Below are positions 4,104 through 39,214 of a stretch of DNA of 64,000 bases, piece by piece. Origin of the DNA: Acidobacteriota bacterium (GTDB taxonomy: Bacteria > Acidobacteriota > Thermoanaerobaculia > Multivoradales > Multivoraceae); NCBI GenBank assembly GCA_003388555.1, contig QQVD01000043.1, positions 62,001 through 126,000 on the forward strand, read 5' to 3'. The notes under the pieces were generated by a model. It worked only from the letters and a program-made list of their open reading frames with translations. It had not been told where the DNA came from and did no database searches. The number at the start of each line of letters is the position of its first letter. Position 1 is the first letter of the stretch. Position numbers and translations under genes: made by a program.

Positions 4104-7100
4104 ATGCGCACCACGTGGCGCGAGCGTCTTGCCAGGCGAGGTTGGGAGATCGAGTACACGGTGGTCGGCGGCTCGCTGCCCGACGACCCACTGCTGGCTC
4201 TCGACGACGGTGCGAGAAGTCTGGCGGCTCGGGCTCGCTCGCAGGTGATGGTTGCGGCTTCTCCTGCGAAGCGAGCTCCATCGGCGGACGTCAGCTACTG
4301 GGCGGCCGTTTGCCGCAAGATCCTCCAGCGTGGTTCGAATCCGACCAACCACCACGCGGCGATGGCTCAGCTCTCGGGCTGGGCCCCCAGCGAGGAGCTG
4401 CTGAAGCGGGCGGTGGTCGGGCGTGTCTGCGATGGGCCACTCGATCCGTCGATCGAGCTGCATCCGACACATGAGGTTCCGTTCTGGGAGCGGGTGACGG
4501 AGGGCAATCCGTGGCTGCGTCGCTTCTTGTATCCGCAGGCGAGTCTGGCGGCGCTGACGGGTGAGGACTCGGCGGAGAAGGGGAGCTGGGTCGACTTCCT
4601 GTTCTACGTACCGTGGCACCCCAAAGCGGTGGTTCTGGAGATCGACGGCGCCGGCCACGAGTCGAGCGCGGCGCTCGACGGCGAGCGGGATCAACTGCTT
4701 CGGCGGCGGGGGATGCTCGTCGAGCGGGTTCGGGGCGCGGAAGTGCACGACCCGGTTTCGGCAGTTCTGGGGAGGCTCGAGCGGAGCGCTCCTCTCTGGC
4801 TCTCCGAAGCGCCCCGTGAAGCGCTACGAGCAGTGCATGGGCCGGCGGCGTGTGCGCGACTCACCTTCGCGCTGGTGGAGTGTGTCGAGCGTGGATTCGT
4901 GGAGGCCGGCGGCCCGTGGGCCGTCGAGCTCGCCGACGCCGACGGGCTGACCGACGGCTTGGAGCCGGCAGCATTGGATCTGCTGGCGCTGGTGGACGAC
5001 CTCTGGGAAACGGGTGTGGTGCCCGATCTCGTGGTTCTGAATCGCCGCGTCTGGAAGCGCGGCCCGGATGGGCGCTTCCATCGTGACGCCAGTGAGGTGA
5101 GAGTCGAGTCCACTGCCGAGATCCGTCTCGAAACGTTCGTCTCTCCGCATGCCGAGCTGACCGATCGAGGCAAGCCCTCTGTGGTGATGCGGAGCGCACT
5201 GTTGCCGGTCGACCTCTCCTGGGGCAGACAGGCGTCCCTGGAACGCCGCGCGGTTGCGATCTCGGAGAGGGGCCGGCAGGCGCTGCATGGGCTGCTGGGA
5301 GACCTCTTCGGGCACACGGCGTTTCGTGCCGGGCAGCTCCGGGCGATCGAGCGCACTCTGTTGGGCCGCGACTCGTGCGTGCTGCTTGCCACGGGCGCTG
5401 GGAAGTCGCTGATCTTCCAGGTGGCCGGCTTGGTGCGTCCGGGAGTGACTCTTATCGTCGCCCCGCTGCAATCCCTGATCGACGACCAGGCCCGGCGGCT
5501 CGAGGAGATGGGTGTCGAGCGGGTGGTTGCGTTGCACAGCGGCCGGGCCTCTTCGGCTGAGGATCGCAGGTCCCTCGAGGAGGCCATCGCGCGCGGCGAG
5601 GCCCTCTTCGTGCTGGTGAGCCCGGAGAGGCTGCAGAGCAAGTCGTTCCGGGCCCACCTGGTGGCCGCGGCAGCCCGGCAGGCGGTGAACCTCGCGGTGG
5701 TCGACGAGGCGCACTGCGTCTCGGAGTGGGGGCACGACTTCAGGCCCTCCTACCTCAAGCTGGGGCGGAACCTGAGGAGGCTCTGCGCCGATCGGGCAGG
5801 TGAGCCACCGCCCGTCCTGGCCCTCACAGCGACCGCGTCGCCGCGGGTCTTGGATGAGGTCCTCGAGGGCCTGGAGCTCGATCGCTCCGATCGTGAGGTG
5901 GTGCTCAAGTCCGACTCGTTCGATCGCCCCAACCTGCACTATCGGGTGGTTCGCGGCCGACCGGTCGAGCGTCGGGGGAAGTTCACGGAGTGCCTGAAGG
6001 AGATCGCCGGGAAGCTCGGCGTCGAGGTGCACGCGCTGGCCGAGGTCGCTGGCGCCGAGACTCTCGGCGGAGTCGTCTTCGTCCCCCACGCCAACAGCGG
6101 CCTCGAGCTGGGGCTGTCCACGTATCGATCGGCCGCCGCGCGAGCGCTGGGAATCGAGGAGGCCCAGGTCGCCGTGTACTCGGGCAAGAGGCCGAAAGAC
6201 CTCGGCTCTCCGGACTGGAATCGGGAGAAGGTCGAACAGGTGACGGCGTTTCGTCGCAACGAGAAGGCACTGATGGTGAGCACGAACGCCTTCGGCATGG
6301 GCATCGACAAGCCGAACGTGCGCTACACGATTCATGTGACTCAGCCGGGATCGATCGAGAGCTTCGCTCAGGAGTGCGGTCGGGCCGGACGCGACGGGAA
6401 GCCGAGCTTCTGCTACCTGATCTCGGCAACCGACCAGAACGTGGACGAGACGTGGATCGATCGGCGCCGCTCGATCGAGACGCAGTTCGCGCGGTGCGAC
6501 ATCCGGATCAACATCGGACGTCTGAACGACAAGCAGCCACCGCCGAAGGCTCAGCTCGCGGTGGCCACGGCGGTCTTGGACGAGTTGCTGGGCGAGGAGG
6601 CTTCGGCGGTCAGGATCCCGCGGTCCCAGCCTTCGAAGGAGGCGAGCCGGAGCGGCTATGGAGATCGAGAAGCCGCTGACCGGGAACGGGCGCTGTACCG
6701 GCTGATGATGCTCGACTTCGTCGACGACTACACGGTCGAATGGGGCTCTGGGGGCTACTTCGAGGTCCAGAAGGCGTCGTTGGATCCAGCGCGTCTACGC
6801 GCCCGCGCGATGGAGGTGGTTCGGCGTCTCAGCGGAGGCAACCGGAAGCACCTGAAACGCGTCGAGGACCTCGGGCTGGACCTGCTACCGAAAGACCTGA
6901 TCGTGGCGGCGCTGGAAGTGCTCATCGACGTTTTGAGCGAGACGCTCGAGCCTGGGCGCGCGAACGCTCTGAGAGAGATGTACCTGCTGACGAAGATCGA
7001 CGATGGCGAGACGATTCGTCGGAAGATCAACGCCTATCTCGGCGACGGCCCGGTGTCGCTGATCCTCGACAAGGTGGTTCGATCCGAGGCGACCTTTGCC

Positions 7101-28325: not shown

Positions 28326-28955
28326 ATGGACGACCGAAGGACGATCGCCTGCCTGTGGGCCTTGGCGATCTATCTGAGCTCCGTCGTTGGACTGAGCATC
28401 TACACAATGATCCAGGTCTTTCCGTCGAACTGTAGCGACGGAGGGACGAGGGCCACGGGTGCTGCTGCCGAGGAATCGACTTCCACGGCCGGCCAGGTCG
28501 CGGAGAGCTCCTCCGGGCCTTGTCTGGAGTTCGACGCCTTCAGTCTCTTCGCCAAGGAGTTCAAGGGGCCGGACAGCGAATCGGGAATGATCCTGATCGC
28601 GGTTCTGGCGGGAGCGATCGGCGCCTTCCTGCACGCTGCCCAGTCGCTGATCTCCTACGCTGGCAACGGCGACTTCAAGCCTTCGTGGACCCTCTGGTAC
28701 GTCCTGCGTCCGGCGATCGGAGCGGTGCTCGGGATCTTCCTCTACTTCGTCTTTCGGGCCGGGCTGCTCAGCGCCTCGGCGGGGGACGTGAACCCCTACG
28801 GTGTGGTGGCCCTGGCTTTGTTGGGTGGGCTGTTCTCCAAGCAGGCGACCGACAAGCTCGCCGAGGTCTTCGATCAGTTCTTCAGCAACCGGGGAGATCT
28901 CGAGCGCGAGGACAAGCTGACGAAGAAGGACTCGGCAGCGGAGGACGGGTCGTGA
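28326..28955 (+). CDS. Multi-pass membrane protein coupled to nitrilase-like gene
   Basis: 209 residues with hydrophobic segments near 7-30, 87-108, ~128-148 and ~160-178. Cys36 and Cys66 flank a Ser/Thr/Ala-rich extracytoplasmic loop and could form a disulfide. The C-terminus (AEVFDQFFSNRGDLEREDKL) is charged and cytoplasmic. No family is recognised. The GTGA overlap with the next gene makes it the membrane partner of the nitrilase-like protein. Confidence 0.75.
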   Translation: MDDRRTIACLWALAIYLSSVVGLSIYTMIQVFPSNCSDGGTRATGAAAEESTSTAGQVAESSSGPCLEFDAFSLFAKEFKGPDSESGMILIAVLAGAIGAFLHAAQSLISYAGNGDFKPSWTLWYVLRPAIGAVLGIFLYFVFRAGLLSASAGDVNPYGVVALALLGGLFSKQATDKLAEVFDQFFSNRGDLEREDKLTKKDSAAEDGS

Positions 28956-31417
28956 CGGCGCCGGCGGTGGAGCGCGCGAGTACCGTCCTCGAGGACCTCG
29001 CGGGCGACCTGTGCCTCGAGGACTCGGTCGATGTCTATCTCTGGCCGCCGGACGTCTTCGCCCTGACCTCGGAGACACTCAAGGTGACGGGCGCCTACCG
29101 CCTGGCCACCGACGCGACGATCGAGAATCCGTGGCCGCCGAAGGAAAACTGGGTCCGGGCGGCGAGACGGCAGGGGCGAGAGTGGTGGAAGTTCGTCTAC
29201 GACTTCGGCATCGAGCGGAATGAAGCCCCGGCAGTGGAAGATCTCGAGCAGAACCTCGCTTCTGTCGGCGAGCTCCGGACCAAGCTGATCGAGTACCGCG
29301 ATCTGCCCATCGACGCGTTCGACGCGATCGGCTCTCCCGAGGCGGGAGGTGAGGAAAGGAAGGCAGCAGAGGAGGTCGCGGTCGCTCTGCTCACGCTACA
29401 CGGACTGGCCGACGAGGCTTGTGCTGGTTTCGGTGTGCTCAGTGGAGCTCGCGGCATGGCCTCGATCATCCACTTCGCCGCCAACTCGCTGCTCTCCGAG
29501 ACCGGTTCGCTCTCGAGGCGTACTCGCAGCCGCGGGCTCGTGTTGCCGAAGATGCGCACCTCGCAGGTCGGTCTCACACTGCGATCCTTCTCGCACCACC
29601 TGACCTTCCACCAGACCGAATCCCAGGTCACCTGGCGGGCGGTGCCCTGGACCTCCGAGGACGAGACCACGCTCAACATCCTCATGGTCCCCTTCCCGTA
29701 CCGGGTCTCGGCGAGGGCTTTCCAGCCGCGCCCTACTCTCGGCCAAGCTCGCTCGATCCGCAATGGGAGGTTCTTCGAGTACTCGGAGCACGGCGAGGCC
29801 CTCGACGTCGACGAGGTGCTCGACCTCGTGCGCGTTTCCGAGGCGCATGCCGGGCGGGTTCACGTGATCCTCCTGCCGGAGCTGTCGATCGGGCGACAGA
29901 AGCTCCTCGAGCTTCAGGACAAGCTCGTCCAGGCGCGCGGCAACCTGCCGATTCCGATGATCCTCGCCGGAATCGCCGATCGCGGCGAGGGTCGGGATGC
30001 GGCCGCCAGGAATCGTGTGGTGCTGTGCACCTACTTCGCGGGCAAGTGGTACGAGCTGGCTCAGGACAAGCATCATCGCTGGAAGCTGGATGCACCTCAG
30101 GTGTTGCAGTACGGCCTCGGTGGCGTACTCACCGGAGGCCGCGACTGGTGGGAGGCGATCAGCATCCCGAACCGCTGTCTCTCGATGCTGGTTCCGAGTG
30201 GCTGGTTGGCGCTTGCTCCCCTCATCTGTGAGGACCTGGCCCGTCTCGACCCGATCAGCGAGCTCATCCGCGGTATCGGACCGACTCTGACGATCGCTCT
30301 GCTCTTCGACGGCCCCCAGCTGAAGGAGCGGTGGCCGGCCCGGTATGCATCAGTGCTCGCTGATGATCCCGGGTCCTCGGTCCTGACCTTCACGAATCTC
30401 GGCATGGCGCGGCGATCGCGTATCTGGAAGGACGACTCCCTGAAGACGCGAAGCAGCCTCGGCAACAGGACGGTGGCCTTGTGGAAGGACGACGTCCGCG
30501 GTTGGCACACTGTCACTCTGCCGCCGAACTGTCGGGCCTCGCTTCTCACCGTGACGGCCGAATGGGATGAGGAGTACACGGCCGACGGGCGTTCAGACGG
30601 GCGGCACGCAGCGCGATTCGTGCTCCAAGGCGTTCACCCGATCTACCCGAGCCGCGAGCGAGAGGCGCTGGACGGGAGGTGCGACGAGGGTGCATGGGAC
30701 GTCTGCTCCTTGCCGGATCGAGAGGACGTCTCGGAGTCGACGAAGCAGCCTCTACCGAAGTTCTATGGGCACGCGAGCGGTGCAGACCTTCTGGAACTGT
30801 CGTCGGTCACTTACCTGGCTGACTCGCTACTCGACTGTCGGAGTGAGGACGTGATCCGGATCGCGAATCTGGCGCGATACAAGCGTCAGGGCGACTCTCC
30901 TCTGCTGGCGTCCGTTCACGGTGTGCTGTGCCGGCGCAGTTCCTTGCGCAACGGCCAGGATGCCGAAGGCGACGACGATCAACTCGACCAGTACCGGTTC
31001 ACGACCCGCCGCCTTCGACGACGGATCGACATCGCGGAACGCCCACCCACCGGCGAGCGCATCGCCCAGATTCGGAGCAAGGAACGACGTCAGTACTACT
31101 CCTGCCTAGTCAGGCACTGTGCTGAGACTCTCGATTGCTTTTCGGATACCGAGTGTTCGCTGGAAGAAGTGCTCGGGGAGCTCGAGATCGGCAGGCAGCG
31201 GGAGCTGTCGCCCATCACCTGTCTGAGGCTAGAGATGCTCGTCGTCCACACCGTTCTGTGGACGGTGCACAAACGCGTCTCCGAGTTTCGCCGCCAGGGG
31301 CGACTCTCCAGCCTCTGGGCCGACCTGCTCTGCCGCACCGAGGACGAGCTGCAGAGAGAAGGGCTGCGCCTTCTCGATCGCTTCCACGGGGAGAAGTGGC
31401 CTGACTCAGACGCTTGA
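28952..31417 (+). CDS. Nitrilase-fold (C-N hydrolase) protein with large helical extensions
   Basis: 821 residues from GTG 28952, which overlaps the upstream stop (GTGA). Residues ~1-250 are helical and unrecognised. Residues ~250-520 form a carbon-nitrogen hydrolase domain with all three catalytic positions: Glu310 (VILLPELSI), Lys373 (AQDKHHRWKL) and Cys426 (LAPLICEDL). Following strands (TIALLFDGP, VLTFTNLGMARRS) fit the nitrilase fold. The C-terminal ~300 residues are charged, helical and unrecognised. Ordinary nitrilases are ~280 residues and act alone; the extensions and membrane partner suggest a sensor-effector arrangement, possibly cleaving an amide or nitrile bond of a cofactor. Substrate unknown. 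Confidence 0.8.
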   Translation: MTAPAVERASTVLEDLAGDLCLEDSVDVYLWPPDVFALTSETLKVTGAYRLATDATIENPWPPKENWVRAARRQGREWWKFVYDFGIERNEAPAVEDLEQNLASVGELRTKLIEYRDLPIDAFDAIGSPEAGGEERKAAEEVAVALLTLHGLADEACAGFGVLSGARGMASIIHFAANSLLSETGSLSRRTRSRGLVLPKMRTSQVGLTLRSFSHHLTFHQTESQVTWRAVPWTSEDETTLNILMVPFPYRVSARAFQPRPTLGQARSIRNGRFFEYSEHGEALDVDEVLDLVRVSEAHAGRVHVILLPELSIGRQKLLELQDKLVQARGNLPIPMILAGIADRGEGRDAAARNRVVLCTYFAGKWYELAQDKHHRWKLDAPQVLQYGLGGVLTGGRDWWEAISIPNRCLSMLVPSGWLALAPLICEDLARLDPISELIRGIGPTLTIALLFDGPQLKERWPARYASVLADDPGSSVLTFTNLGMARRSRIWKDDSLKTRSSLGNRTVALWKDDVRGWHTVTLPPNCRASLLTVTAEWDEEYTADGRSDGRHAARFVLQGVHPIYPSREREALDGRCDEGAWDVCSLPDREDVSESTKQPLPKFYGHASGADLLELSSVTYLADSLLDCRSEDVIRIANLARYKRQGDSPLLASVHGVLCRRSSLRNGQDAEGDDDQLDQYRFTTRRLRRRIDIAERPPTGERIAQIRSKERRQYYSCLVRHCAETLDCFSDTECSLEEVLGELEIGRQRELSPITCLRLEMLVVHTVLWTVHKRVSEFRRQGRLSSLWADLLCRTEDELQREGLRLLDRFHGEKWPDSDA

Positions 31418-31463: not shown

Positions 31464-32549
31464 CTATCGAGGCTCGAAGACCGAGACCGTCGGCTGATCG
31501 ACGAACACCAGGGGCTGCGCCACCTCTCGACCATTCCGCTTCGCCACCTCCACCAGGTGCTCGTACCAGTTGAAGAACGGTGCCGTCCGCTCAGCGGCCT
31601 CTCGAAGTGCTCGCTCGGCCAGCGGGCGCACCAGGTCGTCCCAGCGCCAGGGGTCGTCGAACAGCGTCTCGGCGTCGTCGTAGCGGCCGAGATCGAACGC
31701 GGGGTCGATGCCGTAGGTGAAGGGCACGACGCGCCCGTCGGGCTCGACGACGAGGGTGTCGACGAGTTGGGTGAAGGATGGCGCCATGGTCGTCGCTGCG
31801 GCGGCGCGGGCGGCGGGCCAGACTGTGGTGGGGTCGCGGCGCAGGCGCTCGCTGTTGACCAGATCGACCTCGACGCGCAGGCGGCAGGAGTCAGCGGCCA
31901 GAGCCCAGAGGTAGGCGCGGGAGACATCGAGAGGGGAAAGGGCCTCGGCGTCGAGGTGCTGGCCCTGCCCGACCTGCTCGAGGGGATGCAGCCGCAGCGC
32001 GGCGGCACCCTCGTCGATGGCGAAGTGGAGCAGCCACTCGAGCTCCTCGAAACTCGAACGCCGCAGGGTGTGCACGATCGCGAACGGCATGCCGAGATCG
32101 CGCAGGGTGGCGAGCCCGCGGCGCGTCACCTCGAAGGCGCCAAGGCGACGGCGGAAGGCGTCGTGGCGCTCGGGCGATCCGTCGACCGACACCCCGAGCA
32201 GGGCGAAGCGCTGGACGGTGTCGGGCCTGGTCGGCGGGCCGAGGCGGGTGCCGTTGGTCACGGCGCTGAGCGTCCAGCCCTGCAGTGTGGCTTCTTCGAT
32301 CAGCTCGTTCAGGCCTCGGTAGAGGAACGGCTCGCCGCCGGACAAGGAGAGTCGCTCGTAGCCGGCGGCGCGAGCGCGGCGCAGGAAGTCGACGAGGGGA
32401 TGCAGCGCCAGGGCCTCGCTCTGGCGCGGCCCCGAGTCCGAGTAGCAGTGGCTGCAGGCGAGATTGCAGCGCCGCGTGAGGTGCACCTGCACGGTGCGGT
32501 GTCCCTCGCGCGGCGCTTCGTCGCCCGATCCCAGCCTCCTGTGGGTCAC
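31464..32549 (-). CDS. Radical SAM enzyme (peptide-maturase type)
   Basis: 361 residues from GTG 32549. CNLACSHC places Cys28, Cys32 and Cys35 for the [4Fe-4S] cluster that splits S-adenosylmethionine; SLSGGEPFLY is the GGE motif and AVTNGTRLG the ribose-binding strand. The C-terminal third (VVEPDGRVVPFTYG) resembles SPASM/Twitch folds but lacks the cysteines needed for auxiliary clusters. The gene starts 27 nt after a 109-residue gene, the usual place for a maturase relative to its peptide substrate. PqqE/AlbA-like maturases are the closest general comparison. Confidence 0.88.
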   Translation of the reverse strand: MTHRRLGSGDEAPREGHRTVQVHLTRRCNLACSHCYSDSGPRQSEALALHPLVDFLRRARAAGYERLSLSGGEPFLYRGLNELIEEATLQGWTLSAVTNGTRLGPPTRPDTVQRFALLGVSVDGSPERHDAFRRRLGAFEVTRRGLATLRDLGMPFAIVHTLRRSSFEELEWLLHFAIDEGAAALRLHPLEQVGQGQHLDAEALSPLDVSRAYLWALAADSCRLRVEVDLVNSERLRRDPTTVWPAARAAAATTMAPSFTQLVDTLVVEPDGRVVPFTYGIDPAFDLGRYDDAETLFDDPWRWDDLVRPLAERALREAAERTAPFFNWYEHLVEVAKRNGREVAQPLVFVDQPTVSVFEPR

Positions 32550-32576
32550 CAGGATCTCGTTTCGTACGTTGGGGGT

Positions 32577-32906
32577 TCAGCGCGAGATCTGGGTCATCTT
32601 CGCCCTGACCTCGAAGCGGTCGGGCGCGATGATTCCCTTGGGGAAGATCTGCAGATCGGTGCGCAGGTCCTTCAGCTCGGCGAGGCGACTCACCAGGTCG
32701 CCGAGCTGGTCGTGCTTCACCTCGAAGTGGGCTCCGGCACCCTCCTGGATGATGATCCCGATCGGGAACACGTCGGTGGGTGAGAAGCCGTCCGCGTCGA
32801 GCTTGGCGATCGAGGTGGCCAGCTCGGTGAGGGCCTCGTCCGACAGCTCCTTGCGGGAGAGGCGGAGGCGGATCTTCTCGGCGTCGTAGCCAGGGGTCTC
32901 GCTCAT
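32577..32906 (-). CDS. Small protein next to radical SAM enzyme, possible substrate
   Basis: 109 residues from ATG 32906. The N-terminal half is helical and leader-like (EKIRLRLSRKELSDEALTEL). The C-terminal half has an internal repeat: DVFPIGIIIQEGAGAHFEV and QIFPKGIIAPDRFEV, sharing [VI]FPxGII then FEV. There is no signal peptide or cysteine. As first gene of a two-gene operon with the radical SAM enzyme it may be a RiPP-like precursor, although 109 residues is long; a chaperone or partner subunit is the alternative. Confidence 0.65.
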   Translation of the reverse strand: MSETPGYDAEKIRLRLSRKELSDEALTELATSIAKLDADGFSPTDVFPIGIIIQEGAGAHFEVKHDQLGDLVSRLAELKDLRTDLQIFPKGIIAPDRFEVRAKMTQISR

Positions 32907-32929
32907 GGTGCGGGTCTCCGGATGGTGGG

Positions 32930-33429: not shown

Positions 33430-35799
33430 CTAGCCGCTGGTCGAACTCCAGGAGGAGGTGTTTCCCGACTCGAACCCGTCGCTGAAGATCACCCCTCCGC
33501 AACCGGAGTTGGGCCCTGGCGCTGAGGGCGTCTGCGGGCACCAGTCGCTGCCGGAGTTGCTGTCGCTGCCGTCCGGGGACCGCCCGATGACGTCCGCATC
33601 GCTTGGCACACTGGGAGCGTTCGGCGCTGACCAGGTGGTACCACTCGGAGGCGGTGTGGAGGATATGCCCCAGCGCACGAAGTCCACGCCGGTACCGCTA
33701 CCGTTTGAGAGCGCGACCGAACCCGAGTCCGCCGAGACCCAGTTGAAGTTCTGGCCCGTGTAGACGGTCGCCGTCGCCGGACTGCCGGTGTTCTCGAAGA
33801 CCCGTACGAAGGCGCCAGGGCTCAGGTTGTAGGACGGCAGGGTGTGGGTGTCCGTTGCTCCTCCGGTGGAGACCAGCGTCCAGCCCGACAGGTTCTGAGA
33901 CGAAGATCCGGAGTTGTAGAGCTCGACGTAGTCGACCGGCCCGGTGTGGATCTCGTTGACAACGATTCCACCCGATGAGGTCGACCAGGTGGCTCGCACC
34001 GAGTAGCCGATCGGTCCCGTGTCCCAGTTGTTGACGCCGACCCACCAGCGTCCGGCCGAGGGTGTAGGGAAGGTGCAGGCCTCGGAGTTCGTGCTGCCGA
34101 AGAAGGGGCGACAGTCCCACAGCGAATCGGTGGGTTGGGCTCCGAACCTCACATAGAGGTCGAGGTCCCCGCCGAGATCGAAGAGCTCGACAACCAGGTT
34201 GCTGGCACCTGCGGCGAGGTCGGCGTAGTAGTAGTTCCAGCTGCCTTGCTGTACGGAACCGTTGATCGATCCGGCCTGGGTGACGCCATTGGAGAGGGCC
34301 GCACCGCCGCCACAGCTCGCGGTGGAGAAACTGAGGGTGGCGCCATTGGTCGAGCCACCGGCGCTGGAGGCCCTAGCACGGAAGTAGTACTGGGTTCCGC
34401 AGCTCAATCCTGTGAGGCTTTGAGGCGTGGAGACCGGTGAGGTGCCGGATCCGATACCGCCGTGGGTGACCGTACTTCCGAGCCCCGGTGTAGTGCCGTA
34501 GTCGAAGAAGACGGTGGTGCTCGACCCGTTGGGGTCGACCGACGCGTTGAGGGTGGCGGAAGTCTGGCCGATGGACGTGGCCGCGTTCGTGGTGACGGTC
34601 GGTGGGGGTTGGGGGCATGCAGTCGTGTTGAAGTTCAGCGTGTTTCCGTTGCTGGTGCCTCCGCTGTTGGAGGCCCTAGCACGGAAGTAGTACTGGGTTC
34701 CGCAGCTCAATCCTGTGAGGCTTTGAGGCGTGGAGACCGGTGAGGTGCCGGATCCGATACCGCCGTGGGTGACCGTACTTCCGAGCCCCGGTGTAGTGCC
34801 GTAGTCGAAGAAGACGGTGGTGCTCGACCCGTTGGGGTCGACCGACGCGTTGAGGGTGGCGGAAGTCTGGCTGATGGACGTGGCCGCGTTCGTGGTGACG
34901 GTCGGCGCACTGGCCGGGGGCGAGTACTCGACGAAGATGTAGGGAGCGTCGGTTCCGAACTCACTCGCCGTCACTTGCAGTTTCGCGCCCGAAGGGGGGT
35001 TGCCCGAAGGTGCCACGAAGAGCCCGTTGTTGTTGTGGCTGCCGGCGTTCCACTGCTGAGCGATGCTGGTGATATCCATGAACTTGTAGTAGTCGGAAGC
35101 AGTGCCGACCGTCTCGAAGTCCTGGAGGTCGCCGAGTGCCGGTTGGTTGTTCCATGTGACCGTGCCCTCAGACCAGAAGTTGGCTGCACCGTCGGCCACG
35201 GCCCATGCGCCGACCGTCCAACTGCCGACGGACTGCTCGACGTGATAAGAGAGCGTCGCGTTGGTAATCGTTCCATTGACGAAGAAGGTGGAAGCCCTGA
35301 AGAGGATGTACCCAACGCCGGGAAGAAACGATTCCGCGTCGAGTCCAGCGTAGATCGGACTCAGATCGCCCGAGTTGAAATCTGGGGTTCCCGACCAGAC
35401 ATCGGCATCGTGATTGAAAAAGAAGTCGGCGGAACCGCGCAGCCCGCCTTCTGGAACCGACTCGGCTTCGAAGACCCGCCGCGTATCGATGGCCGGGAGG
35501 TTCGGGGGCGGAGTCCAGAGCTCGATCCTTGGCGGTATCGCAGCCGAAAGGACCATCCCGTAGCTCCCGTCCTCGAACTCGAAGAACAGCGCGCCGCGCT
35601 CGACCCAGGTATGGGCAACGCTCCGGTTCGAGATCTTCTCACTGTCGGACTCCACCCTCTCGATGAACGAGAAGAGGGACGTGAGCTCGCTCGCCGACAG
35701 TGAGGCGACGAGGGCAGGTCGGGCCGCTGTAGCTTCAAGCCCGGTGCACAGGGCCATTGTGATCGAGAGGAAGATCCTGCCTGCTGGACACGGACGCAT
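33430..35799 (-). CDS. Secreted multidomain protein: DNRLRE, two Fn3-like, PPC, lamin-tail domains
   Basis: 789 residues; ATG 35799 follows AAGGAGG. After a signal peptide, residues ~105-300 resemble a DNRLRE-type beta domain (GTVTWNNQPALGDL, MDITSIAQQWNAG, GLFVAPSGNPPSGAKLQV). Two Fn3-like repeats of 101-residue spacing follow (TVTTNAATSI to FRARASN), then a PPC domain (DLDLYVRFGAQPT, WWVGVNNWDTGPIGYSV) and a lamin-tail domain (IVVNEIHTGPVDYVELYNSG, LSGWTLVS). The end VIFSDGFESGNTSSWS is a GFESG-type terminus recurring in secreted proteins of related bacteria. Likely an extracellular adhesive or carbohydrate-interacting protein; no enzyme motif seen. Confidence 0.82.
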   Translation of the reverse strand: MRPCPAGRIFLSITMALCTGLEATAARPALVASLSASELTSLFSFIERVESDSEKISNRSVAHTWVERGALFFEFEDGSYGMVLSAAIPPRIELWTPPPNLPAIDTRRVFEAESVPEGGLRGSADFFFNHDADVWSGTPDFNSGDLSPIYAGLDAESFLPGVGYILFRASTFFVNGTITNATLSYHVEQSVGSWTVGAWAVADGAANFWSEGTVTWNNQPALGDLQDFETVGTASDYYKFMDITSIAQQWNAGSHNNNGLFVAPSGNPPSGAKLQVTASEFGTDAPYIFVEYSPPASAPTVTTNAATSISQTSATLNASVDPNGSSTTVFFDYGTTPGLGSTVTHGGIGSGTSPVSTPQSLTGLSCGTQYYFRARASNSGGTSNGNTLNFNTTACPQPPPTVTTNAATSIGQTSATLNASVDPNGSSTTVFFDYGTTPGLGSTVTHGGIGSGTSPVSTPQSLTGLSCGTQYYFRARASSAGGSTNGATLSFSTASCGGGAALSNGVTQAGSINGSVQQGSWNYYYADLAAGASNLVVELFDLGGDLDLYVRFGAQPTDSLWDCRPFFGSTNSEACTFPTPSAGRWWVGVNNWDTGPIGYSVRATWSTSSGGIVVNEIHTGPVDYVELYNSGSSSQNLSGWTLVSTGGATDTHTLPSYNLSPGAFVRVFENTGSPATATVYTGQNFNWVSADSGSVALSNGSGTGVDFVRWGISSTPPPSGTTWSAPNAPSVPSDADVIGRSPDGSDSNSGSDWCPQTPSAPGPNSGCGGVIFSDGFESGNTSSWSSTSG
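34366..34905. repeat. 237-bp near-identical direct repeat inside the secreted protein gene
   Basis: Bases 34366-34602 and 34669-34905 match with a single difference (C at 34569 versus T at 34872), offset 303 bp or 101 codons. Each encodes one Fn3-like repeat. The identity at synonymous sites implies very recent duplication or gene conversion. Confidence 0.85.
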
Positions 35800-35868: not shown

Positions 35869-36777
35869 TTAGTCGCGCAGGAGCGTCGCGAGCTCCTGCG
35901 GCGGTGGCGCGCCGCGCACGATCCGAGAGACGATCAATCCGTCGGGCTCTCGGGAGGCGATCGCCAGGGTCGGTGTTGCGCTGACGGCCAGTGTTTCGGC
36001 GACCGAGCTCGCAGCGGCGCGGTACTGGCTCCCTCCGTAGGGCGCCTTGTCAGGGCTTGAGGCGCACAGGGCCGCGGGATCTTCGGCCTCGATCAGGAGC
36101 CGTGCGGCGGCGACGCTGGATTGGTGCCGATCTCCTGAGCTGAGACATTCGAAGGCTGCGGCTTCTCGGAGCCTCCGAGGGGAAGGTGCCGTGCTCGGCA
36201 GCCAGGGGACGACCATCACCTCCCAGTGCTCGAGCTCCGCCAAGAGTCCCCCGCTCTGCTCGAGGAGCTTCCTGGTAGCTGAGCACGAGAAGTCCGCGAC
36301 GATGACGAGTACACGGTTGCCGATCGCGATCGAGTTCGCTGGCAGGGCGCTGAGATCGATCTCCACGCGATCGCTCTGGCCCGCGTTGTCTTGCGGGAGA
36401 GTGCAAACGACATGGATGTCGTTGGCGGTCTTCGCGGATCGGCGGAGTTCCCCACGATCCTCGTTCCAGTAATGGGCGAGAGCGGTGTCGATCTCCGAGC
36501 TCCAGAACCACGATGGTGATTCGTCGAGGGCCCGGACTTCCTCGACTTCGCGTGGAGACGGCAAGGTGCCTTGGTATCTCGACTCGCACAGAGTCATGGC
36601 GGTTCGCCAATCGGCCTCGAGGCCGAGACTGACGAACGCGGCGCTCTTCGGCTCGATGTCGCTCGAGGCCTCGGGCGAGTGCACCGTGAGTCCTGAAGCC
36701 ATGACGCTGAGGGGCGTTGCGAGTGTCGTGAGGGCCGCGAAGGCCGGAAGCAGACGGGTGCTAGTTCGTCTCAGCAT
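35869..36777 (-). CDS. Exported thioredoxin-fold-like protein with a single active-site cysteine
   Basis: 302 residues with signal peptide (LLPAFAALTTLATPLSVMAS). VLVIVADFSCSATRKLLEQ followed by WEVMVVPWLPS, and near the C-terminus AVSATPTLAIASREPDG, match a DsbA/DsbC/G-type fold: strand, Cys-helix, and cis-Pro loop (TP). The CxxC is CSAT, so the resolving cysteine is absent; isomerase, glutaredoxin-like or non-redox roles are possible. The start overlaps the end of the upstream cysteine-repeat protein gene by 17 bases, linking it to a cysteine-rich export substrate. Confidence 0.65.
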   Translation of the reverse strand: MLRRTSTRLLPAFAALTTLATPLSVMASGLTVHSPEASSDIEPKSAAFVSLGLEADWRTAMTLCESRYQGTLPSPREVEEVRALDESPSWFWSSEIDTALAHYWNEDRGELRRSAKTANDIHVVCTLPQDNAGQSDRVEIDLSALPANSIAIGNRVLVIVADFSCSATRKLLEQSGGLLAELEHWEVMVVPWLPSTAPSPRRLREAAAFECLSSGDRHQSSVAAARLLIEAEDPAALCASSPDKAPYGGSQYRAAASSVAETLAVSATPTLAIASREPDGLIVSRIVRGAPPPQELATLLRD

Positions 36778-39214
36778 GGGTGATCTGCTCGCTGAAGAGC
36801 ACGATTCGCGGCGTCTGGAAGGCGTCGTGCACCTTGTATTGACCGAACAGCGTCACCGGTGGGCTCCCTGAGTTCCAGGTCTGCAGGGGGATCACGAGAG
36901 CGACGGAGATGTATCCGCGATCGATGATGAAGAGGTCCTCCGGCAACCAGTCGAAGTCGAGGTAGAGCATCTCGTTGCCATAGAACCCCCCACCGGGCGT
37001 CGCTCCGGCCTTCATCATCTCGGGGTACACGGAGGACCGGTCGCCTCGCCACTCCGACGAGTTCCAGAACTGATTGAGTAGCGATGTGGTGGCTTGCCAG
37101 GTCGAGACCACGGCGCCGGGGCCGACTTTCGCCGCGTTCGTCGCCAGCTGGAAGAGGGTCCTGCCCAGTCGCACCGCCGGCTGCAGGAAGGAACCATCTC
37201 CTTCCGATACTGCGTTGAGGTCCTGTCGCGAGAAGGCCGTAGGAAAGCTGAGGCTCAGCGGGTCGTGCATCGGATCGCTGAGGCCCAGGACCTGGGACCG
37301 GGTGATCGACCTGGTCACCAGTAGCGACGCGCCGCGGTTCCAGTCGAGACCGACGCTGCGTGGTATCGCGATGGAGAACCCGCCGTCCTCGATGATGTCG
37401 TCCCAGTTGCCGTTCACTTCGGGGCGGATCTCGACCACGATCTCCTTCCGGCTTGGCACGTAGTAGAGGCCGATGCGGTGCGCTTGATCGGGGTGACCGC
37501 CTCCGACACCGATCGTGCGAATCGTGCGCCAGGATCCGCCACCGCCACCGCCGCCCGAGGACTCACAGAAGTCGTAGGTGGCAGGGAAGCCATAGTTGGC
37601 TCCGACGTCGATGGCGCAGATCAGACCGGCCTGGCACTCGGCGTCGCCGTCGCAGTCGCCCTGTCCGATTCCGCAGGGTCCGCAGTCACGGCAGAAGTCG
37701 ACGTCTCCGTTGGAGAGGTTGCAGCCGCCGCCTCCGCCGCCCGGTGACTCGCAGACGTCGTAGAGGGGCGGGAAACCGTAGTTGGTGCCGACGTCGTTTC
37801 GGCAGATCAGACCGGCCTGGCACTCGGCGTCGCCGTCGCAGTCGCCCTGTCCGATTCCGCAGGGTCCGCAGTCGCGGCAGAAGTCGACGTCTCCGTTGGA
37901 GAGGTTGCAGCCGCCCCCTCCGCCCGGTGACTCACAGAAGTCGTAGGTGGAAGGAAAGCCGTAGTTGGCTCCGACGTCGATGGCGCAGATCAGACCGGCC
38001 TGGCACTCGGCGTCGCCGTCGCAGTCGCCCTGTCCGATTCCGCAGGGTCCGCAGTCGCGGCAGAAGTCGACGTCTCCATTGGAGAGGTTGCAACCGCCAC
38101 CGCCCTGTGTTTCGCAGACGTCGTAGCTCGCTGGGAATCCGTAGTTGGCGCCGACGTCGGTCGCGCAGGTGAGACCCGGCAGGCATTCGCCGTCACCGTC
38201 ACAGTCGCCTTCTCCGATTCCGCAGGGTCCACAATCGCGGCAGAAGTCGACGTCTCCATTGGAGAGGTTGCAACCGCCACCGCCACCGCCCGATGCCTGC
38301 ACGGAGAGGGTGAACGAGCCGGTCGTGCTCGGAAGGTAGGTGGTTGCCTCGACCGTGTAGGTACCTGACGATCCGAAGGTGAAGGAGAGGTTGATTCTCG
38401 AGTTGTAGCCTGTGCCCGAGTCGTCATCGACTGCGATCGGGGTTCCCGAAGCCGACGAACCGTTGTAGAGAAGCAGATAGGTGTCGACCGTCGCCGACGT
38501 CAGATCGATCTGCAGACTCGTCTGGCCGCTCATCGAGAAGGTGTAGAACTTCGCGTACCGACCCGGGCGGCCGACGGAGGCGCAGCTCGTCGTCCAGGTG
38601 CCCTGATGTGAGGAGGGAAGAGTGATGTTGTTGTCGCAGTGAGTTCTCGAGCCTGCGGCGGAGATCTCGGGTCGGGCCGATTCCATCGCGCCGAAGAGCT
38701 CTCGGTACTCGATCGGAGCAGACTCGATGGCAACCGCGACGGAGCCGTCACGGAAGACCAATCGGGGCGTCGCAGAGAGTGCCTCTTCGCCGAGGCCCCG
38801 GAGGGCGAAGAACAGCGCATCCTCGAAGTGGAGCACTGGACGTTCCGCGACCCTTGCCAGCCTTTCGTTCCGACCCGGGCTCTCGATCACGAAGTAGCTC
38901 GACCGGTCCTCGTCGAGCGCTTCGATCAGCCATGTTTCCGTGCCTGGTCGCTCCTCATTCTCGAGTGGCCAGGAGCGCAACACGCGCTTCGATAGCTCTT
39001 CCTTCAGGAGGGGGGAGCGATTCACGAGGCGGTCCAGGATCCGGGTCGATGAGCTCATGGAGGCCTGGACGGCGGCTTCGGGGAGTACCGAGCGAAGGCT
39101 CTCGAGCCGGTCCTTTCCGGTCGCCTCTTGCGTGAGGCCGGTATCCGGGATAGCCAGACATCCGAGGATGGCCGCCAAGAGGATTGCCGCAGAGACGTGT
39201 GCCCTAGAAGTCAT
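36761..39214 (-). CDS. Secreted protein with PPC-like domain and four cysteine-rich repeats
   Basis: 817 residues with a signal peptide (SAAILLAAILGCLAIPDTGL). Residues ~195-310 resemble a PPC beta domain (VDTYLLLYNGSSASGTPIAVDDDSGTGYNSR). Four ~60-residue repeats follow, separated by Gly runs, each with CNLSNGDVDFCRDCGPCGIG, then DCDGDAECQAGLIC and GANYGFPATYDFC: eight cysteines and a DxDGD calcium-like loop each. The C-terminal ~250 residues are unrecognised. It looks like a large extracellular, disulfide- and metal-stabilised protein. The downstream Dsb-like gene overlaps its end. Confidence 0.8.
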   Translation of the reverse strand: MTSRAHVSAAILLAAILGCLAIPDTGLTQEATGKDRLESLRSVLPEAAVQASMSSSTRILDRLVNRSPLLKEELSKRVLRSWPLENEERPGTETWLIEALDEDRSSYFVIESPGRNERLARVAERPVLHFEDALFFALRGLGEEALSATPRLVFRDGSVAVAIESAPIEYRELFGAMESARPEISAAGSRTHCDNNITLPSSHQGTWTTSCASVGRPGRYAKFYTFSMSGQTSLQIDLTSATVDTYLLLYNGSSASGTPIAVDDDSGTGYNSRINLSFTFGSSGTYTVEATTYLPSTTGSFTLSVQASGGGGGGCNLSNGDVDFCRDCGPCGIGEGDCDGDGECLPGLTCATDVGANYGFPASYDVCETQGGGGCNLSNGDVDFCRDCGPCGIGQGDCDGDAECQAGLICAIDVGANYGFPSTYDFCESPGGGGGCNLSNGDVDFCRDCGPCGIGQGDCDGDAECQAGLICRNDVGTNYGFPPLYDVCESPGGGGGGCNLSNGDVDFCRDCGPCGIGQGDCDGDAECQAGLICAIDVGANYGFPATYDFCESSGGGGGGGSWRTIRTIGVGGGHPDQAHRIGLYYVPSRKEIVVEIRPEVNGNWDDIIEDGGFSIAIPRSVGLDWNRGASLLVTRSITRSQVLGLSDPMHDPLSLSFPTAFSRQDLNAVSEGDGSFLQPAVRLGRTLFQLATNAAKVGPGAVVSTWQATTSLLNQFWNSSEWRGDRSSVYPEMMKAGATPGGGFYGNEMLYLDFDWLPEDLFIIDRGYISVALVIPLQTWNSGSPPVTLFGQYKVHDAFQTPRIVLFSEQITHAETN
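37555..38285. repeat. Four tandem ~180-bp cysteine-rich coding repeats
   Basis: Four in-frame units of about 180-190 bp within the 817-residue protein gene. The three closest to the 3' end share long identical stretches (for example the part encoding GQGDCDGDAECQAGL), whereas the 5'-most unit is more diverged. Poly-Gly linkers of varying length between units suggest slippage or unequal recombination. Confidence 0.8.

Follow-up and report, generated by a model that had tools for sequence, protein, structure and literature searches.

The closest described systems are radical SAM enzymes that mature RiPPs. According to PMC8326336, SkfB, the sporulation killing factor maturase, acts on a RiPP and has a twitch region at its C-terminus. 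The same source presents the proteusin epimerases PoyD and OspD as enzymes with a single radical SAM cluster and a C-terminal RRE, which act on cyanobacterial peptides, and a third comparison is offered by the spliceotide system PlpX/PlpY (PMC11002830), whose target motif ends in Gly. The locus compared with them here is a pair of genes in the window, by which we mean the whole 64,000-nucleotide stretch analysed; no paper on this pair or its motif was recognised in the open-licence literature. We read the pair, at a probability of roughly 0.6, as a minimal radical SAM maturation unit, in which the small protein would be the substrate and its FPxGI segments the target of the enzyme.

The two genes and the main features of the enzyme, all on the reverse strand, are the following:

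31464..32549, minus strand: radical SAM enzyme (P0002), 361 aa, recognised by Pfam Radical_SAM (E 4.7e-18), the family alignment and trees
32445..32468, minus strand: CxxxCxxC of the radical SAM cluster, enzyme residues 28-35, with C28, C32 and C35 present in 13/13 aligned rows
31671..31760, minus strand: C-terminal segment DTLVVEPDGRVVPFTYGIDPAFDLGRYDDA, enzyme residues 264-293, free of Cys and, from the alignments, read as a twitch/SPASM-like segment
32577..32906, minus strand: small partner protein and proposed substrate (P0001), 109 aa, from the ORF reading and the family alignment
32916..32919, minus strand: GGAG, a possible ribosome-binding site 10-13 nt 5' of the ATG, read from the sequence

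Both genes lie where an earlier note on this DNA had placed them, and the gap of 27 nt that it gave between the small gene and the enzyme gene is exact. The small ORF looks like a real gene, given its GC content by codon position (0.64/0.40/0.93 for positions 1/2/3), the GGAG before its ATG and the low dN/dS of small genes in related pairs (0.13 for L026/L049 and, as a rough value at a dS of 1.3, 0.22 for L124/L125). The unit seems to comprise these two genes only, since the downstream neighbour is convergent with the enzyme gene and the product of the upstream neighbour carries CBM96, PPC and lamin-tail domains. The convergent ORF (28520-31417, plus strand) encodes up to 965 aa without a Pfam match at E 0.01, and part of it resembles a carbon-nitrogen hydrolase. 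The upstream protein (33430-35799, minus strand) also carries two nearly identical Fn3-like repeats in tandem, and further upstream a protein (36761-39214, minus strand) has four tandem Cys-rich repeats (CNLSNGDVDFCRDCGPCGIGxGDCDGDxEC).

Membership of the enzyme in the radical SAM superfamily is indicated by the Pfam match together with the CxxxCxxC. Its cysteines number four, at positions 28, 32, 35 and 222, and the absence of SPASM cysteines reported in the earlier note is borne out, C222 being the only one outside the CxxxCxxC; no Pfam SPASM match was obtained at E 1, so that the enzyme has neither mark of a SPASM/twitch auxiliary cluster. No RRE was seen in it, as the CxxxCxxC already starts at residue 28 and Pfam gave no such match. 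The best match in the PDB was SkfB, both by profile (E 4.5e-37) and by model (Z 24.1 over 276 residues, rmsd 3.4). Kinship with viperin or NirJ was considered and rejected, the NCBIfam matches to these being far below their cut-offs.

When genome contigs were scanned with the enzyme as query, 80 of 310 loci were retained. The four best by E-value (L024, L025, L026 and L049, E 6e-52 to 2e-33, with the next at 1e-25) were taken as the family and the remaining 76 served as controls, while profile searches added G029, G083, G144, G335, G824 (the genome of L129) and G1320. At E 1e-45, 6/396 genomes of the window's own phylum passed, including the window's genome and G302; the phylum of L024 gave 3/292, among them L024's own genome and one partial match, with G824 as the addition, and the family of G083 gave 3/119, adding G1320. 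Other genome sets (1/289, 4/274, 1/99 and 1/2) returned the query genome alone or with partial matches, and within the genomes searched the enzyme family is rare and patchy. Four genomes that passed E 1e-45 (G744, G1075, G1268 and G1273) were dropped because their matches stop after roughly the first 200 of the 351 positions. Viral contigs held 13 weak radical SAM relatives, whose best segments cover part of the enzyme at 25-38% identity, and plasmid searches with two group enzymes as queries returned one and five records, the same record appearing in both and the other four matching about half of the query. Of the plasmids, the one from Mycolicibacterium was taken into the further analysis.

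An earlier tree of 13 rows had the sister pair described below as its only outgroup and so could not show a single group, for which reason 44 control enzymes were added. In the resulting 57-row tree the 11 group enzymes form one branch (100/96), which joins the sister pair L126/L139 in a branch of 13 (99/96) before any of the 44 controls. The window enzyme groups with L105, L026 and L049 (93/90) on a long branch, its exact place being unsure according to the tool, which attached a long-branch warning to this tree with the window among the branches concerned. L024 and L129, together with L025, L123 and L137, make up a branch of five rows (100/96), and the partners of L123 and L137 are proteins of 106-107 aa. 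A C-terminal Cys is kept in 7/11 of the group and in both sister enzymes, and is lost in the L026/L049/L105 branch and in the window.

In the sister pair, L126 (in G302) and L139 (on the Mycolicibacterium plasmid NZ_MF600313.1, 140026-141552), a related radical SAM enzyme follows shortly after an ORF of 111-118 aa. These enzymes have 11-12 cysteines, compared with 4-8 in the group of 11, and are placed outside it by the trees; their small proteins differ from those of the group at the N-terminus and lack the tandem motif, with PYPKGI once in L126. That motif had made L126 a candidate member of the family, which the trees and the extra cysteines ruled out. By eye, the two sister ORFs share a similar N-terminus (I.P..L..I...GRL.EF), and the L126 genome belongs to the window's phylum. 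A search for other plasmids carrying the L139 small protein found none.

The association of the two genes was assessed from ORFs of 40-160 aa ending between 200 nt before and 60 nt after the assigned enzyme start. An ORF with FPxG[IVF] adjoins the enzyme in 10/11 group loci, where its end ranges from 90 nt before the enzyme start, as assigned in this analysis, to 5 nt past it, and the window pair was counted from its 109-aa reading, the ORF from an upstream TTG being 227 aa and beyond the size limit. Among the other radical SAM loci the strict motif occurred in 0/76 and a looser one in 1/76; these controls were searched for ORFs ending at most 450 nt before the CNLxCxxC nearest position 6030, by which a few of them may be misplaced. 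The arrangement expected of RiPPs, a precursor gene beside its modifying enzyme and conserved with it, is therefore found in 10 of the 11 loci, with the small ORF as putative precursor. The remaining locus, L025, has the enzyme without any FPxG[IVF] ORF in 13 kb.

In two cyanobacterial members of the group the small ORF is predicted to encode a GG-leader-like peptide, with FPVGI twice in L024 and FPYGIPADLFRL once in L129. The predicted 69-aa ORF of L129 reads ...LTPEELEELEALKGGGLSYLGDFTYRPFPYGIPADLFRLKTLDVANRVVRY, with GGG followed by RPFPYGIPADLFRL, and matches the HMM of the second repeat at 14.2 bits, a score reached by none of 2000 shuffles. The predicted 89-aa GG-leader ORF of L024 has PFPVGI twice, ends in PFPVGIPVGVPVHHPFPVGIPVGIPVGILVPLNES and lies 16 nt before the enzyme; it matches Bacteriocin_IIc below the cut-off (E 0.0063), and it shares the motif alone with the repeat HMMs (3.3 and 2.9 bits, equalled by 11 and 6 of 2000 shuffles). 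Among cyanobacterial cores the pattern FPVGIPVG may be widespread and have no connection with this enzyme. A C39-peptidase ABC transporter and an HlyD protein, of the kind that normally exports GG-leader peptides, are encoded 4.3 kb away on the other strand of the L024 contig. Next to the L024 enzyme (L024:7220-8969), a TIGR04103 radical SAM/SPASM maturase is preceded by a Nif11-leader precursor that contains PLYGVV and PMYGVI; this has the look of a spliceotide unit and may be compared, in its LYG and MYG, with PlpX/PlpY. It is because GG-leader peptides replace the small protein in these cyanobacterial members that we infer the small protein to be the substrate.

Within P0001 the motif and its surroundings (...DVFPIGIIIQEGAGAHFEVKH...LQIFPKGIIAPDRFEVRAKM...) are arranged as follows:

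32751..32768, minus strand: first motif copy, FPIGII, residues 47-52, with G50 invariant in 8/8 aligned small proteins
32718..32726, minus strand: FEV of the first repeat, residues 61-63, read from the sequence
32628..32645, minus strand: second motif copy, FPKGII, residues 88-93, with F88, P89 and G91 invariant in 8/8 aligned small proteins
32607..32615, minus strand: FEV of the second repeat, residues 98-100, read from the sequence
32715..32840, minus strand: repeat unit 1, residues 23-64, predicted helix-strand-loop-strand, from hhalign of the halves and the model
32589..32714, minus strand: repeat unit 2, residues 65-106, predicted helix-strand-loop-strand, from hhalign of the halves and the model

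FPxGII...FEV is thus present twice, as the earlier note had observed, and two copies of FPxGI arose in 0/200,000 shuffles of the P0001 letters. When residues 22-64 were compared with residues 65-106 in the eight-row alignment, hhalign gave a probability of 96% and E 4.6e-9, with a score of 38.7 over 35 columns that none of 200 column shuffles reached (best 15.6). Alignment at the family level therefore supports the repeat as a true duplication. The helix part aligns less well between the halves than the motif part does, and the repeat unit looks like about 40 residues, a whole alpha-beta-beta module that seems to include the helix once read as a leader. Since the two halves align over a stretch that takes in the predicted helix 23-38, this helix probably belongs to repeat unit 1 and is not a separate leader, which leaves only residues 1 to about 22 outside the compared halves. 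The idea of two modification cores fares better in part: relatives keep the motif, and it appears again in the GG-leader peptides, whereas the picture of a leader helix followed by two unstructured cores does not agree with alpha-beta-beta modules and a predicted fold. No cleavage motif was recognised in P0001.

Comparison of the repeats across homologs, which had been set beforehand as a check, found the motif kept, with F, P and G as the most conserved positions. Across the eight aligned small proteins just four positions, G50, F88, P89 and G91, never vary, and all four lie within the motifs; in the six divergent rows the 14 motif columns have a mean entropy of 1.11 against 1.82 for the other 79 (permutation p 6e-5, the motif columns having been chosen after the alignment was inspected). 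The small protein of L026 matches P0001 at E 1e-5 in a two-sequence comparison, and a three-row profile of small proteins finds that of G083 at E 7.5e-17. The motif varies elsewhere in the group: the L123 partner has FPYGF once with a degenerate first copy, HCKGQP, the first copy of the L137 partner is likewise degenerate (LIRGIP), and the L129 peptide has a single copy. In the branch of L026, L049 and L105 a cysteine stands on either side of the first motif (CPYGIC, CIYGIC).

No family for P0001 was found in Pfam or NCBIfam, even at E 1, and for the small partners of five of the nine other loci (L024, L026, L105, L124 and L129) NCBIfam at E 0.1 and Pfam at E 1 gave only below-cut-off matches, for L129 and L024. 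A single-sequence search with P0001 in 60 genomes, including its own, found nothing but the window locus itself below E 0.01, with some match at E 1 in 21/60; the weak match in G029 (E 0.168) lies directly ahead of a group enzyme. Weak profile matches in G158 (E 8.1e-4) and G096 (E 0.0072, with an internal stop) were left out of the family, and no enzyme/small-protein pair was present among the ORFs around the latter.

P0001 is predicted, at moderate confidence, to fold. The AlphaFold2 model, a proposal built on a shallow alignment of eight sequences, has a mean pLDDT of 76 and a pTM of 0.66 (five models ranging from 76 to 54), with helices at 9-17, 23-38 and 65-76 and strands at 43-49, 56-64, 81-89 and 97-106, an alpha-alpha-beta-beta-alpha-beta-beta order in which FPIGII and FPKGII each take up the final part of a hairpin's first strand and the loop that comes next. 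Of solved structures, the model comes closest to the periplasmic domains of PilO, GspL and GspM, whose alpha-beta-beta-alpha-beta-beta fold it would share (VIA Z 7.6-9.7, rmsd 2.1-3.0), and to Amuc_1100 (Z 8.8, rmsd 3.6); Foldseek gave a best E of 6.5e-4, and the tool cautions that proteins with no real relationship typically reach a best Z of 7-8. PilO/GspM-like domains come with a membrane anchor and a secretion or pilus operon, and neither was seen for P0001: only 8 residues precede its first predicted helix, its sequence shows no hydrophobic stretch, and no pilus or secretion family was found among the four neighbours scanned. As modelled, the likeness is that of a common ferredoxin-like arrangement and shows no function.

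Such a predicted fold is unusual for a precursor peptide and counts against the small protein as substrate, as does the pattern in L124/L125, where the small protein is 64% identical along its whole length (enzyme 61%), as a structural partner would be expected to show. Other points on the same side are that the four neighbours of the window pair that were scanned included nothing recognisable as a protease or exporter, that L025 has no partner and that L024 is linked by the motif alone. These observations bear on a competing explanation, in which the small protein would be a folded partner of the enzyme (a scaffold, substrate-delivery or RRE-like subunit), the FPxGI segments would be docking or structural loops and the real substrate would be encoded elsewhere. 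It draws on the PilO/GspL/GspM-like fold, the full-length conservation in L124/L125 and the lack of a visible RRE in the enzyme, the splicease PlpX being described in PMC11002830 as working with a separate RRE protein, PlpY. We consider it rather unlikely, because the ORF at this place in L024 and L129 is a motif-bearing GG-leader peptide too short for the two-unit fold, conservation is highest at the motif residues, and the predicted fold is not the winged-helix fold that PMC8326336 gives for the RRE. Among the 50 fold matches listed for the model no RRE entry was recognised, which in itself does not speak against an RRE. That FPxG[IVF] is constant across partners of different shape is what would be expected of an enzyme target, although a docking motif would give the same pattern.

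If the small protein is the substrate, a folded protein with two sites fits the model better than a classical leader/core peptide. The window substrate would consist of two alpha-beta-beta units in tandem, with an FPxGI displayed by each at a strand end and in the following loop, which makes two sites per protein. The enzyme, with its one radical SAM cluster, would most likely recognise the F-P-x-G-[IVF] segment and carry out a 5'-deoxyadenosyl-radical reaction there. As a tentative and somewhat doubtful extension, a duplicated RiPP core hairpin may have become a stable folded domain that displays two radical-modified FPxGI loops and is kept in the cell, uncleaved and unexported, as a functional protein or protein-borne cofactor.

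An auxiliary cluster is a usual electron acceptor. Because it is missing here, we lean weakly towards epimerisation, rearrangement or fragmentation, reactions that involve no net oxidation, and away from an oxidative crosslink. One form of substrate modification would be inversion at Calpha in the FPxGI segments, as by PoyD or EpeE, which the match of the enzyme model to EpeE (Z 17.9-18.4) and the radical SAM cluster alone, likewise reported for proteusin epimerases in PMC8326336, would suit. We think it unlikely: known epipeptide and proteusin epimerases, as described in the same source, use a critical Cys, and an epimerase of known type is unsupported here because no Cys column outside the CxxxCxxC is conserved in all 13 rows, the best being 9/13 with Ala in the window enzyme. 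An oxidative crosslink, for example from Phe to x of F-P-x, or a cyclopropane before Gly as in TvgB, which forms cyclopropylglycine from Val in a repeated TVGG (PMC9062424), appears improbable. The motif does begin with an aromatic residue and is repeated, but the cysteines for the SPASM/twitch clusters that such enzymes are reported to carry are absent, and residue x varies across members (I, K, Y, R or V), so that no single side-chain reaction at x fits them all. Excision of the residue before Gly is suggested by the last or only motif being PYG in 7/10 loci with a small ORF, PlpX excising tyramine from Xaa-Tyr-Gly (PMC11002830). This splicease-like outcome is nevertheless very improbable in the window, where the motifs are FPIG and FPKG without Xaa-Tyr-Gly and the enzyme lacks the SPASM domain and cysteines of the class to which PMC11002830 assigns PlpX; the residue before Gly is also Val in L024 and Ile in L137.

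Were the small protein to be the substrate, as we prefer, a leader/core peptide and a folded two-repeat protein would both be targets of probably the same reaction with the FPxG kept, and the change between cut-out peptide and modified protein could be tested by comparing a few enzymes. If its reading as a folded protein also holds, one enzyme group would span GG-leader peptides in cyanobacteria and folded two-site proteins in the window's phylum and Rhodobacterales. An enzyme without auxiliary-cluster cysteines would offer a small and simple system for peptide radical chemistry.

Set against the described systems, the window enzyme has SkfB as its best match and differs from it in having no N-terminal RRE and no auxiliary-cluster cysteines, and a Cys thioether like that of SkfA is impossible in the window because P0001 contains no Cys. 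It shares with PoyD and OspD the single radical SAM cluster, but neither their C-terminal RRE nor a conserved Cys beyond the CxxxCxxC was seen in it, and no PoyD-named NCBIfam model occurs among the best 25 of its 67 matches. With PlpX/PlpY the pair has in common a motif that ends in Gly, as in FPxG, and is distinguished by an enzyme without SPASM cysteines and a window motif without Tyr. We would regard the pair as a new form of peptide maturation by radical SAM enzymes and would not assign it to any named RiPP class.
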